Shown here: positions 3,049 to 51,320 of the stretch, one piece after another
Numbering within the stretch: position 1 is the stretch's first letter
Layout of the letters: each line of letters begins with the position of its first letter
Assembly: GCA_026015185.1 (NCBI GenBank)
Contig: JAOZGX010000044.1
Span: 1-51,320, forward strand
Direction: 5' to 3'
Origin: Candidatus Bathyarchaeota archaeon
GTDB lineage: Archaea; Thermoproteota; Bathyarchaeia; 40CM-2-53-6; RBG-13-38-9
DNA: 51,320 nt
Position numbers and translations under genes: made by a program
The notes under the pieces: generated by a model
Told to the model about the DNA's origin: nothing
Seen by the model: only the letters and a program-made list of their open reading frames with translations
Database searches by the model: none

Positions 3049-3222
3049 ATGGTAAACCAAGGCGTAGGAAGCATCTTCAGGAGGAAAGATGGTAAGTACT
3101 TTGTCTATTTACCAATGGCGCTTGTAAGAGATACCGCATTTCCATTCAAAATTACAGAATCTATCAAAGTTAAAGTTCGATTCAGACCTAATGAAAAAAG
3201 ATTAGTGATCGAGGAAATCTAG
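3049..3222 (+). CDS. AbrB-like small regulatory protein
   Basis: 57 residues from the ATG at 3049. The frame is open to a TTG at 3004, but that would overlap the preceding gene. The pattern GSIFRRKDGKYFVYLPMALVRDT, then FPFKITESIKVKVRF and KRLVIEEI, is that of a compact swapped-hairpin AbrB/MazE-type DNA-binding fold, here in the form common as single-domain proteins in Thaumarchaeota-like archaea. It lies directly after the RAM-domain gene and before a tfb gene, so a transcriptional role is plausible. A GC palindrome begins four bases after its stop. The assignment rests on fold-level similarity. Confidence 0.6.
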   Translation: MVNQGVGSIFRRKDGKYFVYLPMALVRDTAFPFKITESIKVKVRFRPNEKRLVIEEI

Positions 3223-3226
3223 ACAA

Positions 3227-3240
3227 GAGCGCGCGCGCTC
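3227..3240. repeat. Alternating GC palindrome
   Basis: Perfect 14-bp palindrome GAGCGCGCGCGCTC between the AbrB-like gene and tfb. Together with the element at 4224-4237 it brackets the tfb gene. Confidence 0.8.
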
Positions 3241-3262
3241 AAAAGATTGGGGTTGAGAAATT

Positions 3263-4216
3263 TTGCAAAAAACTGACCGGAATGCGAGGGACGTCGCTTC
3301 GGTAAAAAGTAAAACGAGGGCCTGTCCCGAATGTGGCAGCTCGGATTTGATGAGGGATTATGATATTGCAGAAATTGTCTGCATCGATTGTGGCTATGTA
3401 ATCGATGAAAAGATAGCTGACGCTGGGCCTGAGTGGAGAGCTTTTGACGATGAGCAGAAAACTAAAAGAACACGTGTAGGTGCGCCGATAACTTACACCA
3501 CTCATGATAAAGGCCTATCGACTACTATTAACTGGGGTGATAAGCGATCAATAGGCGGAAAAATATCTTCTAAGCAGAGATTGGAGCTTTATGCTCTCAG
3601 AAAGCGGCAGAGAATAGTTCGTGTTCTTGATGCTACTGAGAGAAATCTGTCAATAGCCTTGTCTGAGCTGTGTAAGCTTTCTTCTGCCTTGAATCTTCCA
3701 AGGAGCATAGTGGAAACGGCTTCCGTGATATACCGGAAAGCCATTAAGAATGGGCTAAGCCGCGGCAGGTCCACCCGCAGTATAACAGCCGCTGCTATTT
3801 ACTTGGCATGCAGGAAGTGCGGGATCCCAAGAACGTTGAAGGAGATAGCCGCTGCTTCCAGCTTAAATAGGAAAGATTTAGCAAGAAGTTATAGGTTCAT
3901 AATCAAAGAATTGGATTCTTTTGTACCACTATTGACAAGCAGCAGTCACGCTTCCAGACTTTCAAATAAATTGGCAATTTCAGGTAGGGCTGAGATTATA
4001 GCTATAAAGATACTTGAAGTTGCTAAGAAAATGAAGCTAACCAGCGGTAGGGGTCCTCAAGGCATGGCAGCTGCGGCCACCTATCTTGCAACAACACTCA
4101 CCAATGAAAGAAAGACGCAGAGAGAGATAGAAAAAATTGCCAACGTCACTGAGGTAACTATTAGAAATCGATATAAAGAGCTCTTAGAAAAGCTGTTAAT
4201 TGAGATAGAACTATGA
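3263..4216 (+). CDS. tfb: Transcription initiation factor B (TFB), first copy
   Basis: 317 residues, normal TFB length. An N-terminal zinc ribbon has Cys21, Cys24, Cys40 and Cys43 (CPECGSSDL...CIDCGYVIDE). It is followed by the B-reader/B-linker segment (GPEWRAFDDEQ, THDKGLSTTI) and two cyclin-like repeats (about 115-205 and 215-310), the second ending in the helix-turn-helix of TQREIEKIANVTEVTIRNRY. TFB bridges TBP on the TATA box and RNA polymerase and sets the start site. The start is TTG at 3263 and no ATG lies nearby. It is a paralogue of the TFB at 19251, from which it differs most in the B-linker (NWGDKRSIGGKI). GC palindromes stand within 30 bases on both sides, giving a single-gene cassette appearance. 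Confidence 0.97.
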   Translation: MQKTDRNARDVASVKSKTRACPECGSSDLMRDYDIAEIVCIDCGYVIDEKIADAGPEWRAFDDEQKTKRTRVGAPITYTTHDKGLSTTINWGDKRSIGGKISSKQRLELYALRKRQRIVRVLDATERNLSIALSELCKLSSALNLPRSIVETASVIYRKAIKNGLSRGRSTRSITAAAIYLACRKCGIPRTLKEIAAASSLNRKDLARSYRFIIKELDSFVPLLTSSSHASRLSNKLAISGRAEIIAIKILEVAKKMKLTSGRGPQGMAAAATYLATTLTNERKTQREIEKIANVTEVTIRNRYKELLEKLLIEIEL

Positions 4217-4223
4217 AGCGCGT

Positions 4224-4237
4224 TAGCGCGCGCGCTA
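4224..4237. repeat. Alternating GC palindrome
   Basis: Perfect palindrome TAGCGCGCGCGCTA, eight bases after the tfb stop and seven before the end of the convergent nfeD-like gene. The stem could act as a shared bidirectional terminator. Confidence 0.8.
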
Positions 4238-4243
4238 TTGTGC

Positions 4244-5572
4244 TTACTTTACGTTTTCAATAGGTTCAACGATTAACAACGACCCTTCTTTATCTTTTAT
4301 AATCGCTTTCATTCCAGGCTTTAGTTTCTCTTTTGACTTTGCTTTCCAGTATTCTCCTTTATACCTTACATAACCAATACTGTTAGAGTTTACTTCATCA
4401 ATTACCTCAACAGTTCCCCCTATCAATGAACCAATAACTGGCTTTCTCCTGCGTGCTTGTAAGATTTTATAGACCATGAACAGAGTGAAAGCGCCTAAGA
4501 TCACCGCTATGCCCAAAACAATCGATATGAAATAATAGTACCACTCAAGTGATATTAACCACTTAGTCCCCTCAAAGGGTATGATAAATATGCTTCCAAT
4601 AACAAGACATACCAAACCAGCCCCACCAAAAATGCCAAACCCAGGAGAGTAAGCTTCAACTACCATTAAACCCATTCCAAGGCCAATCAGAAGTATCGAT
4701 GCTAAGCTCAGACTGAAGCCAAGACCAATTAGACCAATTATAAGAGATATAGCGCCCAAAACTTCAGATCCATAGCCCGGACTAGCTAAGCCGAATATTA
4801 ATGCATACATTCCTATAGAGAAAAGTAGGAAAGCTAAAATTGGATCAGAAATAAAATTGAGAAAAGCCACTTTAACACTTTGAGAATATTCTATGTAATG
4901 AGAGTTTTTAGTCCTCAAGGTCGATGTCCCATAGGCAGTTTTAACTTCTACCCCATCTAACTTCTCAAGGAGCTCTTCAATACTTGACGCCACTATATCT
5001 ATTGCTCTGAATTTAAGTGCAGAATCGCTATTTAAGTTAAGATTCTCCTCTATAAAGAGCCTTGCACAAGTTTCGTTTCTCCCATGCATCTTCGCCCTTT
5101 CAGAAATATATGCTGAAAGAGCATTAATTATCTTTGCATCTTGTATAGGTTCTGAACCTTGAATAGGAGAATAGCTTACAGGCTGGGCAGACCCTATTAT
5201 CGTGTATGGCGCCATCGCTGCTACATGCGAAGATGAGAGAATAAAAGTCCCTGCAGACCATGCTTTAGCTCCAGAAGGGTAAACAAAGGAAATCACAGGT
5301 ATTCTTGAGTCCTCAATGAGTTCTATTATCTTAAAAGTTGCTTCAAGCTGTCCTCCTGGGGTATCTAGTAAGATTACAATAGCTTGAGCATCCAACCTGT
5401 TGCCAGCCTTCAAAGCTTCATCTACAAGTTCTATACTAGCCGAGGTTATAGTTTGGTCCATCTTAATAACTAGTATAGGTGCATTTGATTCCTTTGCATG
5501 ATTTGCAACAGTAAGAGAGCTTAGCGGTAATGTAAGCAGCAACAAGAAAATTAGGGGCTTTCCCTGTTTCAC
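4244..5572 (-). CDS. NfeD-like membrane serine protease
   Basis: 442 residues, the long form of NfeD. It has an N-terminal signal/anchor (PLIFLLLLTLPLSSLTVA); a ClpP-like serine protease domain (about 30-225) with the nucleophile region GAKAWSAGTFILSSS and QPVSYS further on; four to five membrane spans (about 235-375); and a C-terminal OB-fold NfeD domain (GGTVEVIDEV...YWKAKSKEKLKPGMKAIIKDKEGSLLIVEP). Archaeal homologues cleave the hydrophobic C terminus of their partner stomatin. The GTG start immediately follows the stomatin stop codon, so the two form a tightly coupled operon. The gene is convergent with tfb. The catalytic lysine is probably in ERAKMHGRN but was not pinned down. Confidence 0.93.
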   Translation of the reverse strand: MKQGKPLIFLLLLTLPLSSLTVANHAKESNAPILVIKMDQTITSASIELVDEALKAGNRLDAQAIVILLDTPGGQLEATFKIIELIEDSRIPVISFVYPSGAKAWSAGTFILSSSHVAAMAPYTIIGSAQPVSYSPIQGSEPIQDAKIINALSAYISERAKMHGRNETCARLFIEENLNLNSDSALKFRAIDIVASSIEELLEKLDGVEVKTAYGTSTLRTKNSHYIEYSQSVKVAFLNFISDPILAFLLFSIGMYALIFGLASPGYGSEVLGAISLIIGLIGLGFSLSLASILLIGLGMGLMVVEAYSPGFGIFGGAGLVCLVIGSIFIIPFEGTKWLISLEWYYYFISIVLGIAVILGAFTLFMVYKILQARRRKPVIGSLIGGTVEVIDEVNSNSIGYVRYKGEYWKAKSKEKLKPGMKAIIKDKEGSLLIVEPIENVK

Positions 5573-6394
5573 CTATTTCTTTTTCTCCTTAGGTTTTAAG
5601 GCCTTCACCATGGCAGCAATTTTGGATACGTCGATCGCTTCGCCTGTCGTTGTAACCACTACCATATTCTTCTCCCTAGCTATATCAGTCAATGTTTGAA
5701 GCTCTCTCAAGCGCAGTGCGTATGGGCTCTCAAGATAACGTTTAGCAGCTGATGCTATCTTCTCTGCAGCAAGGAACTCCCCATCTGCAATGATAATCCT
5801 GGACCTCTTTTCTCTCTCTGCTTCAGCTTGTTTCGCGATAGCTCTTAACATAGTTTCATCAATACTTACATCTTTTATCGCGACAGTCGATACCTTGATA
5901 CCCCAAGGATCTGTGTAAGTATCAAGTATTTCCCCAATTTTCTTGCTCAATGCTTCGCGTTTAGTGAGTAGATCGTCCAACTCAACTTGCCCCAGAACGT
6001 CCCTCAAAGTAGTTTGGGCAAGCAGGTTTGTAGCTTCCACATAATTCTCAACTTGAATTACAGCTTTTGCTGGGTCAAAGACTCTGTAATAGACAGCCGC
6101 GTCTACATCCACGCTTACATTATCCTTCGTTATGACTCGTTGTTTTGGAATGTCGATAGCCACTACACGAAGATCTATCTTTACAAACCTGTCGGCAATG
6201 GGGATAACTAAGAAGAGTCCAGGGCCTTTTGCTCCTACGAAACGTCCGAGTCTGAATATCACTCCTCTCTCGTATTCCCTAACGACTTTAATTGCTGACG
6301 CCAGTATAAATAGAATAATAATAGCTAGAAAGATGTAGTATAGTATTGTTAGTGAAGGCGTTTCAGCCTGTAAGGCCAAACTCATTAAATTCAT
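5573..6394 (-). CDS. Stomatin/SPFH-domain membrane protein
   Basis: About 273 residues from the ATG at 6394; the frame is open to a TTG at 6484. A single N-terminal membrane span (LTILYYIFLAIIILFILASA) is followed by VVREYERGVIFRLGRFVGAKGPGLF, the signature start of the SPFH/band 7 domain. Then come DLRVVAIDIPKQRVITKDNV and a coiled region rich in charged residues (AKQAEAEREKRSRIIIADGE). Stomatins assemble as rings in membrane microdomains. In archaea they are the partner and substrate of the adjacent NfeD-type protease, and the two genes abut here. A TATA-like TTTTTATG lies about 25 bases upstream of the ATG, consistent with a nearly leaderless transcript beginning at this start. Confidence 0.95.
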   Translation of the reverse strand: MNLMSLALQAETPSLTILYYIFLAIIILFILASAIKVVREYERGVIFRLGRFVGAKGPGLFLVIPIADRFVKIDLRVVAIDIPKQRVITKDNVSVDVDAAVYYRVFDPAKAVIQVENYVEATNLLAQTTLRDVLGQVELDDLLTKREALSKKIGEILDTYTDPWGIKVSTVAIKDVSIDETMLRAIAKQAEAEREKRSRIIIADGEFLAAEKIASAAKRYLESPYALRLRELQTLTDIAREKNMVVVTTTGEAIDVSKIAAMVKALKPKEKKK

Positions 6395-6525
6395 AAAGTA
6401 TCGCTTCTTGTATTCTGCATAAAAATTAAGCTTGGTGTGAATTAAACCTTTTTTTTGAATAACAAAGATTCTTTGAGAACTCACTGCTCAGAGCGAACGC
6501 ACTCACTTTGTTTATTGACATCTTC

Positions 6526-6726
6526 CTATCTTCGTCTTGACGAAGCCCCTATCAAAAGTCCCAATACCAAACCTGCAATGAAAATGATTCCAGCGGATTC
6601 CATAGGTCTACGTTTCATTGTCTCTTCAAGCTCGCCTCTGTACTTGTTCACTAATTTCCTTACTTCTTCTGATCGTTTCTCTAATTTTTCTACCCTTTCT
6701 TTTCCTCGCTCATAAAATTTTAACAA
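6526..6726 (-). CDS. DUF883/YqjD-like glycine-zipper membrane protein
   Basis: 66 residues. An amphipathic, highly charged N-terminal helix (YERGKERVEKLEKRSEEVRK), likely coiled coil, is followed by MKRRPMESAGIIFIAGLVLGLLIGASSRRR-type ending: an RP-containing hinge, one membrane span with small-xxx-small spacing, and a terminal arginine cluster. This is the layout of the ElaB/YqjD (DUF883) family of inner-membrane proteins that bind ribosomes or respond to stress in bacteria. The start must be TTG at 6726 because a TAA lies in frame four codons upstream. It is divergent from the gene at 6988, and both start within copy C. A broken copy of its first codons is visible at the left edge of copy A. 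Confidence 0.7.
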   Translation of the reverse strand: MLKFYERGKERVEKLEKRSEEVRKLVNKYRGELEETMKRRPMESAGIIFIAGLVLGLLIGASSRRR

Positions 6727-46003: not shown

Positions 46004-47110
46004 TCATATGAGTTTTCCCCATGTGTGCTCAAAGTTGCTTGCACTATCTCCAAGATCATCTTTTTTCACCTTCAAAGATCCATCTATTGTCGAAAAATAA
46101 AAGTTCTCAACCTCTGCCGGGTATTCGTTGTAGTAAAGGATTGATTTCATCCCCCATCGTTTAGGCTGTTGGAATCTCCAATAAGCCCTAGCATAAGCTT
46201 TCAGTTGTAAATGGACTTCCTTTTCCTCATCTCTTCCCCTTACATCGAATATAGGGAGCCCATTCTTTACTGAATGCTTTATCTTGATACTTTTTGTTTT
46301 GAAATTATACTCAGTATTTGTATCCTGATGGTAGAAACGGATACCTTTGTATAGAGAGATATCGCCCCAATCTAATAGTGATTTAGGATTTTCTGTTTTC
46401 CTGAATATTTGAGGGCCAATAAATGGATTTGAGTAACTAATGAAACTCCCATCGGCCCAATGCACCAATCCCCAGTACCAGGGTGCACCCGGTGCGTTTA
46501 CTGTGACTCTTTGATGGTAGGCCGAGCCCTCCACATCAAGCCCGCTGATACGCCCCTTCATCTTCATGCCATAGATTTGCAGAATATTGTGGTTATATTT
46601 CTTTGTATAATCTTTCTCCCTGAACCTATGCTTCTGTAAGTAGTTATTCCATGGCGTTAGCTCAAAATGAAAATCATTCTTGGGATCTTGTACATTCACC
46701 ACATATTTCTCTGGGCTACCATAGAACCTATAATCCGTGCCTTCCTTTATGGGGTGAAGCTCCCCCTTATCCCCATCATTACTAACTTCAAAGTCCATCT
46801 CTTCTAGTAGCAATGGGTCATACATTTTCTTATTATCGTACCACCATACTGCTGTCATTCCATTGAACTTGAGTACATTATCTTCCCATGTAGGCAGCTG
46901 CTTAACAGACCATTTCTTATTCATGATTTTGATGTTGTTGGTGTACTTTGTTGACCACAGGATCATCAGTTGTTTAGTTCTATTTGGCCTGTCAGGATCC
47001 TTAACAAAGAATATCCACCACCACCAATACCATGTCAAGTTCGGCATCATGTTGTCTGTCTTGAGAACCCAAAGATTCTGGTACGGTTTGGTTTCATCAG
47101 GATTCATCAT
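46004..47110 (-). CDS. AttH/CrtC-like lipocalin-fold protein
   Basis: 368 residues, rich in Trp and Tyr. Candidate features of the hydroxyneurosporene synthase (CrtC)/AttH family are TWYWWWWIFFVKDP near the start, VEGSAYHQRVTVNAPGAPWYWGLVHWADGSF (a buried His and repeated Trp), SYSNPFIGPQIF, and a second beta-barrel half ending RAYWRFQQPKRWG. Related enzymes hydrate carotenoid double bonds; others are unassigned. No signal peptide. The coding sequence is visibly more G+C-rich than its neighbours, suggesting recent transfer. No carotenoid gene is nearby. The assignment is by overall pattern, not a proven motif. Confidence 0.6.
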   Translation of the reverse strand: MMNPDETKPYQNLWVLKTDNMMPNLTWYWWWWIFFVKDPDRPNRTKQLMILWSTKYTNNIKIMNKKWSVKQLPTWEDNVLKFNGMTAVWWYDNKKMYDPLLLEEMDFEVSNDGDKGELHPIKEGTDYRFYGSPEKYVVNVQDPKNDFHFELTPWNNYLQKHRFREKDYTKKYNHNILQIYGMKMKGRISGLDVEGSAYHQRVTVNAPGAPWYWGLVHWADGSFISYSNPFIGPQIFRKTENPKSLLDWGDISLYKGIRFYHQDTNTEYNFKTKSIKIKHSVKNGLPIFDVRGRDEEKEVHLQLKAYARAYWRFQQPKRWGMKSILYYNEYPAEVENFYFSTIDGSLKVKKDDLGDSASNFEHTWGKLI

Positions 47111-49100: not shown

Positions 49101-50339
49101 TTGAAAAATAGGAAAGTCAATCGTAGAAGCTTCCTTCATAAGATTGTGGGCATAACGGCTCTTGGAGGCATTGCTAGCTTAATTCTGGGGCAAAAAGTGG
49201 AGAAGGTTAGAGGTCTAGACGGTACTGGCTCAGCTAATCAGATCGCATACTGGTTTGATTCAGATACGATAACAGGTGGTAGTGATCTCAAGTTTTTGAC
49301 TACTATTGCTTCATTACAGGTAGGCAACAACTGCACTGCCAGCGGACAATATTCAGCAGTTTGCGGCGGTGAGAACAACAATGCCACTGGATCACGCTCA
49401 AATGTTGGCGGGGGTAAAAACAACAATGCTAGTGGTTGGTATTCAACGATTAGTGGCGGCCAAGACAATGATGCCAGCGGTAGTTCATCAGCAGTTGGGG
49501 GAGGTTACAACAATAAAGCTAGTGGGAGTGGATCATCGATTAGCGGGGGCTATACTAACACTGCCAGCGCAGATTATTCAACCGTTAGCGGAGGCTACTC
49601 GAACTATGCCACTGGATTGTATTCAACAGTTATTGGAGGCTTTGTTAACAAAGCGGAAGGTGATTACAGCCTTGCTGCAGGCAGACATGCCGAGATCCAT
49701 CCTAACCATGAAGGTACTTTCCTCTTCGCTGATTCAACCAATGCAGACTTCAATTCTGCTAGGGCAAAGGAGTTTGCTGTTCGATGTACTAACGGAGCCA
49801 GATTCATTGCTGGCTCAAGCTATCCGGCAGTAAAAGGAGAGAATTCCGGTAGCGGACAAGGCATATACGGCAAATCAACCAGCGGAACTGGTGTAAAAGG
49901 CGAGAGTTCAAATAGCGCAGAATATGGAGTTTCAGGTATTAATTCATCCGGGACTGGAGTCTATGGCGAGACCAGTTCAAGCAATCCAGCAATAAAAGGC
50001 AATAACACTGGAAGCGGTAATGGCTTGCATGGGGAATCTAATGGTGGCAATGGTATTTATGCTAAGAGTACTTCAGGTGCTGCTTTACATGTGGAGGGTA
50101 AGAGTTACTTCAAGTCTGCTCAAAGAGCAACCATACCAACAGGCGTAAGATCACATGATATAACCGTTCCAAGCGGGATTACCATAAGAAGCGATGCGAT
50201 GATATTCGTTACCATAATGAACAACTCCAGCAACATAGGCGTTAGATGGGTTCAGAGGTTATCCAGCGATGAATTCCGGGTACATCTGACCGGGCTTTCA
50301 AGTAATGATATGAACATAGGATACTTCATAGTCAACTAA
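49101..50339 (+). CDS. Tat-exported protein with YadA-head-like repeats
   Basis: 412 residues. A twin-arginine signal (NRRSFLHKIVGITALGGIASLILG) precedes a spacer. At least seven tandem repeats of 14 residues of the form NNxASGxYSTVSGGxxN (about 75-185) follow; this is the left-handed beta-roll repeat of YadA-type trimeric adhesin heads. Then comes a HEGTFLFADSTNADFNSARAKEFAVRCTNGARFI segment like the phage-tail/adhesin collar. Gly/Ser-rich repeats (GTGVKGESS, GTGVYGETS) and a compact C-terminal beta domain (GVRSHDITVPSG...GYFIVN) complete it. It has no outer-membrane anchor, so a surface fibre or extracellular matrix role is likely. Higher G+C than the genome background; TTG start with AGGTG upstream. 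Confidence 0.85.
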   Translation: MKNRKVNRRSFLHKIVGITALGGIASLILGQKVEKVRGLDGTGSANQIAYWFDSDTITGGSDLKFLTTIASLQVGNNCTASGQYSAVCGGENNNATGSRSNVGGGKNNNASGWYSTISGGQDNDASGSSSAVGGGYNNKASGSGSSISGGYTNTASADYSTVSGGYSNYATGLYSTVIGGFVNKAEGDYSLAAGRHAEIHPNHEGTFLFADSTNADFNSARAKEFAVRCTNGARFIAGSSYPAVKGENSGSGQGIYGKSTSGTGVKGESSNSAEYGVSGINSSGTGVYGETSSSNPAIKGNNTGSGNGLHGESNGGNGIYAKSTSGAALHVEGKSYFKSAQRATIPTGVRSHDITVPSGITIRSDAMIFVTIMNNSSNIGVRWVQRLSSDEFRVHLTGLSSNDMNIGYFIVN

Positions 50340-50360
50340 TTATCAGCATGAGTGAAGATA

Positions 50361-51320
50361 ATGCGACTAAATAGACAAAAATTTGGAGCTTCATTAACTG
50401 TAGCTATAATAGTCCTGGTTCTAATGTTCCCATCAACAAACGCTCAACCAACAAATTCTGGATTTGAAACCGGAGATTTAAGTGGATGGTCTTCCCAAGG
50501 TAGCGTTGAAGCTCTTCAAGCTTCCGAGTTCACACCAGCGATAACGCCTCCTGAGGGACAATACTTTGCCTTACTATCTACTGGCCCAGGTGACCAGAGT
50601 CCAGCTCCTGATGATGGAGACCTGGACGGAGATGGGAATAACGACTTTGACATAACTATTCTATCTCAAACATTTACATGTGAAACAGGGACTTTCTCCT
50701 TCAGCTGGTCGTGGCTTACTGATGAGGAGATTACCCCTTCTCAGTATGATGATTTTTTCTTAGTAAAACTTGATGGGGCGATTATTCTATCTGGTAGTGT
50801 TGATAAGACTTCTGGACCATCATCTTTTCCGAACATCTCCACTGATGATGTCGCATACTCGGTGGATAGTTCGGGTGGATTAACCGATCAATCCTACTTT
50901 AGTGATGGAAGGAGTGCCTTTGAGACCTTCGCACAACCTATCTCATATGGGACCCATACGATTGAGTTTATCGTTGCGGATGCAGGAGATGATGGCGTCG
51001 ATTCAGGATTGTTAATAGATAATATTAGATCGATGATGGGTCGGACTACCGACTCTTCTGGAAAGCCTAGAGATGATTTCCTCACTCGCGAGACTGTCTA
51101 TGCAGTAGGTAGTGGTTTTCCTTCAAGCACATCAATTAATATCCATATTGTTCCCGATTCTAACTGGTTCGATGGAATGGCAATTCCATCTAATGTTTCA
51201 AATTATGGAATAAATACAGTTTTTTCAGATCCCTTTGGAGAGTTTGGTCCTGTGATCGTATGGCCAAGTTCTTTAATGATAGGTGCTTATGATATTGTTT
51301 TTGATACAAACCAGAATAGC
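50361..51320 (+). CDS. Secreted calcium-binding-like protein, cut by window end
   Basis: 320 residues seen; the frame is still open at 51320. Signal peptide (ASLTVAIIVLVLMFPSTNAQ) precedes a choice-of-anchor-type domain starting NSGFETGDLSGWSSQGSVEAL, with an acidic loop DDGDLDGDGNNDFD that resembles calcium-binding dockerin/EF-hand repeats and the closing segment GLLIDNIRS. A second domain (about 235-320, FLTRETVYAVGSGFPSSTSINIHIVPD) is immunoglobulin-like. The ATG at 50361 is chosen because upstream ATG at 50348 is in another frame. It follows the YadA-repeat gene by 21 bases, so both may be exported parts of one surface structure. Confidence 0.8.
   Translation, partial: MRLNRQKFGASLTVAIIVLVLMFPSTNAQPTNSGFETGDLSGWSSQGSVEALQASEFTPAITPPEGQYFALLSTGPGDQSPAPDDGDLDGDGNNDFDITILSQTFTCETGTFSFSWSWLTDEEITPSQYDDFFLVKLDGAIILSGSVDKTSGPSSFPNISTDDVAYSVDSSGGLTDQSYFSDGRSAFETFAQPISYGTHTIEFIVADAGDDGVDSGLLIDNIRSMMGRTTDSSGKPRDDFLTRETVYAVGSGFPSSTSINIHIVPDSNWFDGMAIPSNVSNYGINTVFSDPFGEFGPVIVWPSSLMIGAYDIVFDTNQNS

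Follow-up and report, generated by a model that had tools for sequence, protein, structure and literature searches.

A predicted Tat-exported beta-roll protein and its partner: a probable sugar-binding surface fibre of a Bathyarchaeota archaeon

Results

The window analysed here, 51,320 nucleotides, is the whole of one contig (C44, ending at base 51320) from the genome bin of a Candidatus Bathyarchaeota archaeon (1.81 Mb in 118 contigs, 96.6% complete, 2.59% contamination), in which an archaeal 16S gene and TatC are also found. At its end lie two genes on the forward strand, an ORF of 412 codons at 49101-50339 (P1) and a partner gene (P2) that is cut by the contig end at 51320. P1 starts with TTG, with an AGGTG 10 nt upstream, while for P2 the ATG at 50361 is a likelier start than the in-frame GTG at 50352, 12 nt after the P1 stop codon. 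The former lies 21 nt after that stop, the spacing already given in an earlier, sequence-only reading of this DNA. The features of the pair are the following.

49101..49214, + strand: P1, predicted Tat signal peptide, residues 1-38, RRSFL motif (sequence, alignment with the second copy P1', TatC in genome)
49215..49334, + strand: P1, N-terminal cap, residues 39-78, ending in a first partial repeat (alignment with P1')
49335..49697, + strand: P1, beta-roll of 15-residue UspA1/YadA-type repeats, residues 79-199 (repeats, Pfam, phmmer, model)
49698..49814, + strand: P1, post-roll segment H-x-G-x-FLFxD...FAVR, residues 200-238 (multiple alignment)
49830..50108, + strand: P1, GxGVYG-like repeats, residues 244-336 (absent from P1')
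50109..50336, + strand: P1, C-terminal 76-residue domain, residues 337-412, putative lectin-like fibre tip (identity with P1', VIA)
50352..51320, + strand: P2, secreted, Sec-type signal, choice-of-anchor L domain and incomplete C-terminal surface module (sequence, profile)
50607..51020, + strand: P2, choice_anch_L domain (NCBIfam NF038133, E 1.2e-8, above cut-off)
51033..51320, + strand: P2, C-terminal module, incomplete, which in P2' ends in a transmembrane helix and KRR (comparison with P2')

A DNA search of the own genome revealed a second, diverged pair at the start of contig C16, comprising P1' (433 aa) and the first part of P2'; contig C85, whose first 147 bases are the same as those at the C16 end, carries P2' on to its stop codon. 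P2' (391 aa from the GTG chosen) is thereby complete and ends in a predicted transmembrane helix followed by KRRI. The two loci share about 76% nucleotide identity with both ORFs intact in each, and P2 and P2' are 75% identical across the shared part. P1 and P1' differ in repeat number and the GVYG-like region is missing from P1'; their most conserved part is the C-terminal 76-residue domain (88% amino acid identity, 74% at third codon positions). Upstream of P1 no clear DNA similarity between the loci was seen. Judged from these sequences, the two genes remained a complete unit while diverging considerably, in one genome only.

P1 carries the motif NRRSFLHK, of which RR and FLHK are invariant in P1', and a weakly hydrophobic h-region; with the RRxFL pattern and with TatC in the genome it is a predicted Tat substrate. 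The signal is likely cut before LDG, the cleavage site of P1' lying between AHA and LDG. No second hydrophobic stretch is present in P1 beyond the signal, which leaves the protein without an anchor of its own.

The roll contains seven full 15-residue repeats (residues 84-188) and further partial ones. At lag 15 the identity reaches 0.50 compared with a shuffle maximum of 0.25 (lags 5-34, 2000 shuffles), so that the repeats are far from chance, and from residue 84 onwards all 8 rows conserve the glycine at repeat position 6. Compared with one another, the repeats show 42% agreement at third codon positions and 68% at first and second positions, so that the array has not expanded recently. Pfam UspA1_rep matches P1 with 28.9 bits (cut-off 27), and UspA1 (3pr7) is the best sequence match in the PDB (phmmer E 7e-24); according to the portion of PMC9543794 available, UspA1 head repeats are likewise 15 residues long. 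The sequence-only reading had described YadA-type repeats on a Tat signal in an archaeon, and with the UspA1_rep match, the RR pair in both copies and the archaeal 16S gene in the bin this description holds.

The AlphaFold model of P1 was computed as a single chain from an alignment of two sequences and has a mean pLDDT of 48, with values of 52-81 in blocks spanning residues 81-200. In VIA-align the roll of this model gave Z 14.1 to the ryegrass protein 3ult (114 residues) and Z 12.9 to the Fusobacterium autotransporter head CbpF (9gh5, 143 residues), with LpxD and GlmU below both at Z of about 8.5; rows for 1p9h and 3pr7 are absent from the list although CbpF is present, an absence that excludes nothing. 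Foldseek of the model against the PDB gave no match at E <= 0.001, and in a BFVD search 5 of 449 matches reached that limit, namely four phage proteins and one Marseillevirus protein. YadA-type roll heads are trimers. For P1 a trimer may be assumed but is not proved by the roll, because 3ult, which matches the roll best, is an ice-binding protein from a plant. That the roll binds ice or is simply structural, with no part in adhesion, as this Z of 14.1 and a weak Pfam LbR_Ice_bind match below cut-off would suggest, is nevertheless very unlikely, as P1 is closer in sequence to UspA1 than to 3ult (E 0.012) and possesses a separate, conserved C-terminal domain.

With regard to distribution, only its own genome was matched when P1 was searched against the 256 genomes of the class, and the same was true of a two-row P1 profile in a phylum sample of 398 genomes. 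Used as query, the haloarchaeal relative WP_259532799.1 (see below) matched the roll only in this genome among the 256, and one other genome in residues 385-426, outside the roll. Scans of genome contigs and one viral scan found no relative, but as their patterns were narrow and repeats were perhaps masked, they do not prove absence; a genome search with PF18792 was uninformative, missing even the own genome. Paired homologues in other archaea, as envisaged in the sequence-only reading, were thus not found in other genomes, whereas the pair is duplicated within this one. The presence of P1 in only one of the 256 class genomes suggests that it was probably acquired, its roll probably from a phage, plasmid or bacterium. 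A rise in G+C had also been read as a sign of acquisition. The rise is real, P1 having the highest GC of the 40 window ORFs (0.454), but it is weak evidence: by GC3, P1 ranks 5th and P2 9th, so that much of the rise reflects Gly/Ala/Ser/Thr composition, and with GC3 not extreme we reject G+C as proof of acquisition. The highest GC3 of the 40 ORFs (0.463) belongs to a 367-residue protein without Pfam match at 46004-47110 on the minus strand, about 2 kb upstream of P1; three genomes of the same family encode it at 79-87% identity. An empty-site comparison via this gene found non-syntenic surroundings in the three relatives.

The choice_anch_L profile NF038133 scores 34.7 bits in P2 and 35.6 in P2' (cut-off 27). 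A calcium loop that had been noted in P2 is indeed seen there as DLDGDGNNDFD, but its counterpart in P2', DLDGNYNDDYD, is only partly kept. Because the complete P2' ends in a transmembrane helix and a basic tail, P2 itself is very probably membrane-anchored; the full-length paralogue hence supplies the C-terminal anchor for which a check of the downstream gene had been proposed. The model of P2' (pLDDT 34) is too poor for use beyond this helix. A P2 profile matches 29 of the 256 class genomes, nearly always via the C-terminal module from about residue 200, and most of these proteins are unlike P2 at the N-terminus and finish with a hydrophobic segment and basic residues. In the same genome, a protein with this module, a terminal helix and RRKKRD is encoded on contig C79 (3288-3977, + strand), adjoining a DUF2330 protein. 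That the module is common in its class argues that the pair belongs to the archaeon and not to a contaminating contig.

It is solely the adjacency of the genes that suggests a contact between P1 and P2. P1 could instead be released from the cell as a lectin or matrix protein, and P2 be a surface protein linked to it by nothing but co-transcription, which would fit a P1 without anchor, the clean AHA cut site of P1' and the occurrence of the P2 module in 29 class genomes compared with one for P1, meaning that the module does not need P1. We consider this rather unlikely, given that in two diverged loci neither gene has been disrupted or separated from the other.

Searching plasmids with the P1' roll (tblastn) yielded three records with E values of 5e-22 to 8e-17, from Halalkaliarchaeum sp. 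AArc-CO (52.7% identity, E 5e-22), Allomeiothermus silvanus and Herpetosiphon aurantiacus, whereas the tail part of P1 matched nothing there. In phages, the same roll fragment matched three records, which come from two phages and bear a tail-fibre annotation; full-length P1 gave an empty result, a false negative for the roll since the fragment matched at a looser limit. A viral scan contributed one relative among eight pattern matches, a 99-kb contig (L087) with two adjacent roll proteins. These two (566 and 610 aa, at 3159-6695 of that contig) contain very many near-identical repeats.

The closest counterpart is the haloarchaeal plasmid protein, annotated as 'tail fiber domain-containing protein' (WP_259532799.1). 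Like P1 it is archaeal and has a Tat-type signal (ISRRAALGGLLGLG), its roll has the 52.7% identity to that of P1' given above and its post-roll segment is similar; unlike P1, it ends in a Peptidase_S74 chaperone domain in place of the 76-residue domain and has no P2-like gene annotated beside it. RR signals are hence present in all three archaeal roll proteins found. The Allomeiothermus (WP_013159675.1), Herpetosiphon (ABX07727.1) and L087 proteins share 15-residue repeats of the P1 kind and have no autotransporter barrel, and the N-terminal stretch of P1' resembles ABX07727.1. They differ from P1 in that none has an RR motif and no P2-like partner was seen for them; the two bacterial proteins have S74 towards the C-terminus, the L087 pair ends in other sequence. 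In the alignment, the post-roll segment of P1 recurs behind the roll of the haloarchaeal and the bacterial relatives, so that P1 has the roll plus HDGxFxFxD segment of S74 tail-fibre-like proteins, but the S74 domain itself, present in the three plasmid relatives, was not found by Pfam in P1 or P1'.

These relatives bear on the question of a trimeric autotransporter. P1 shares the beta-roll head repeats of the UspA1/YadA adhesins (heads 3pr7 and CbpF 9gh5), and UspA1 being its best PDB sequence match would favour a true adhesin of this type from a diderm bacterium. However, neither P1 nor P1' has a Pfam match to an outer-membrane beta-barrel or coiled-coil anchor domain, both carry an RR-type signal instead of the Sec signal of type Vc systems, the C-terminus is a different one and the relatives found end in Peptidase_S74. 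Such an origin is therefore hardly credible; only the roll is shared, and a full type V system for P1 is refuted. The absence of an outer-membrane anchor, correctly noted in the sequence-only reading, is unsurprising, since the proteins to which P1 was found to be related are 'tail fiber' proteins lacking an anchor and not autotransporters.

The tip blocks of the P1 model have pLDDT values of 58-79. In VIA-align, the C-terminal domain superimposes on the R2-pyocin fibre foot (6cl6) with Z 6.2 and an rmsd of 2.6 over 75 residues, on AP22 gp53 with Z 5.5 and on Helix agglutinins with Z of about 5. These three comparisons cover 73-77 residues at rmsd 2.6-2.8 but only 7-12% identity, with no match at the sequence level. 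Over all jellyroll comparisons Z is 4.5-6.2, with Foldseek E > 0.1, and Z values of 5-6 lie in a range that the tool calls common. Sequence searches with the tip gave nothing in Pfam, phages or plasmids, and a best E of 0.04 in the PDB. The 21 VIA rows confined to residues of about 330-412 comprise 11 phage or pyocin tail, head or receptor-binding proteins, five H-type or octocoral lectins and five unrelated entries (three ZapD, a fucosidase, VP37); the list also contains Sf6 and phi297. The portions of PMC6363177 and PMC6116203 available describe the R-pyocin foot as a trimeric lectin-like jellyroll and name as its neighbours 4MTM, an octocoral lectin, Helix agglutinin and the Sf6 and phi297 tailspikes. 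4MTM, 3WMP and Helix agglutinin of the P1 rows are among the neighbours reported there for the lectin-like domain, and owing to this agreement we favour a lectin-like tip despite the modest Z. In a model of low to moderate confidence, the C-terminus of P1 thus looks like a fibre-tip lectin domain. As it takes the position of the S74 chaperone domain of the relatives, it may also be a trimer clamp. For the repeats between roll and tip (residues 244-333) no Pfam match was obtained.

Directly upstream of P1', on the minus strand of C16 (1786-4707), lie an intact viral large terminase gene (TerL, 538 aa; phrog_675, E 1e-72), a small-terminase-like ORF and a 294-residue orphan. No portal or capsid genes were seen alongside, and the group is a packaging-gene relic. 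TerL is 29.8-35.7% identical to phage records (among 15 listed of 66) and 63-71% identical, in the best segment, to 12 IMG/VR contigs of 13-52 kb; beyond the own genome it has weak matches in 3 of the 256 class genomes. As TerL is matched in an archaeal genome, archaea of this kind are suggested as the hosts of those IMG/VR contigs, and the relic next to P1' may be a clue to how the fibre was brought in. One could hence suppose that P1 serves an archaeal head-tail virus as its tail fibre, or did so until recently, with the P1' copy in a provirus relic: P1' lies 233 bp downstream of the terminase genes with their IMG/VR relatives, and the roll relatives are phage fibre proteins. Both P1 and P1' carry Tat signals, however, the partner has a membrane anchor, no phage gene is listed upstream of the window copy and in the 12 TerL loci, which are parts of contigs, neither P1 nor P2 was seen, all of which makes a virion fibre improbable. 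A provirus origin of the pair we reject on the basis of those 12 partial contigs.

Discussion

Taken together, a Tat-exported lectin fibre of the tail-fibre-like kind describes P1 better than a trimeric autotransporter does, and the gene pair probably makes a slender sugar-binding surface fibre, comparable to a phage tail fibre or a bacterial adhesin head; the archaeal surface fibre proposed in the sequence-only reading is thus plausible. Tat carries folded proteins. P1 would be made and folded in the cytoplasm, exported in folded form by Tat and freed of its signal, with the roll and the GVYG-like repeats as a rigid shaft of variable length and the conserved 76 residues as a lectin-like tip that would bind glycan and probably clamp three chains. 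P2 would leave via Sec, stay in the membrane by its C-terminal helix and most likely hold or present P1 at the surface, and the pair may serve attachment to other cells or to polysaccharide. That P1 is in this sense a surface lectin, exported by Tat and held or presented by an anchored P2 for attachment, we regard as about evenly poised between right and wrong. More doubtful, though worth considering, is the further step that a captured phage-type tail fibre was turned into an archaeal surface lectin, folding (perhaps as a trimer) in the cytoplasm before Tat export and being held by the co-encoded anchored partner.

Proteins resembling trimeric autotransporter adhesins have been published for archaea before. 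The nanohaloarchaeal SVXNc_0803 is called 'trimeric autotransporter adhesin-like' and stands in an operon with other surface proteins (PMC10266531, in the portion available); by description, not by sequence, it resembles P1 as such a surface protein in an archaeon, but it has 1,693 residues and the authors judge Tat likely inactive there. For Methanomassiliicoccales, the part of PMC7883539 available gives YadA-like domain counts of 0 to 1. The repeats as such are of a familiar type. What is new and unusual is that they occur together with a Tat signal, a lectin-like tip and an anchored partner; full-text literature searches, mostly at listing level, found no publication on a Tat-exported roll protein.

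Little is known of how archaea display adhesive fibres that are not pili. If the proposed explanation is true, P1 and P2 would represent the display of a trimeric adhesin without an outer membrane or type V secretion, in a compact two-gene system in which phage-fibre architecture is reused on the cell surface. The haloarchaeal plasmid protein with its Tat signal suggests that the Tat solution arose more than once. The system would then pose a clear export question, namely if Tat can carry a pre-formed trimeric fibre, for which two diverged copies and a haloarchaeal cousin provide comparative material.
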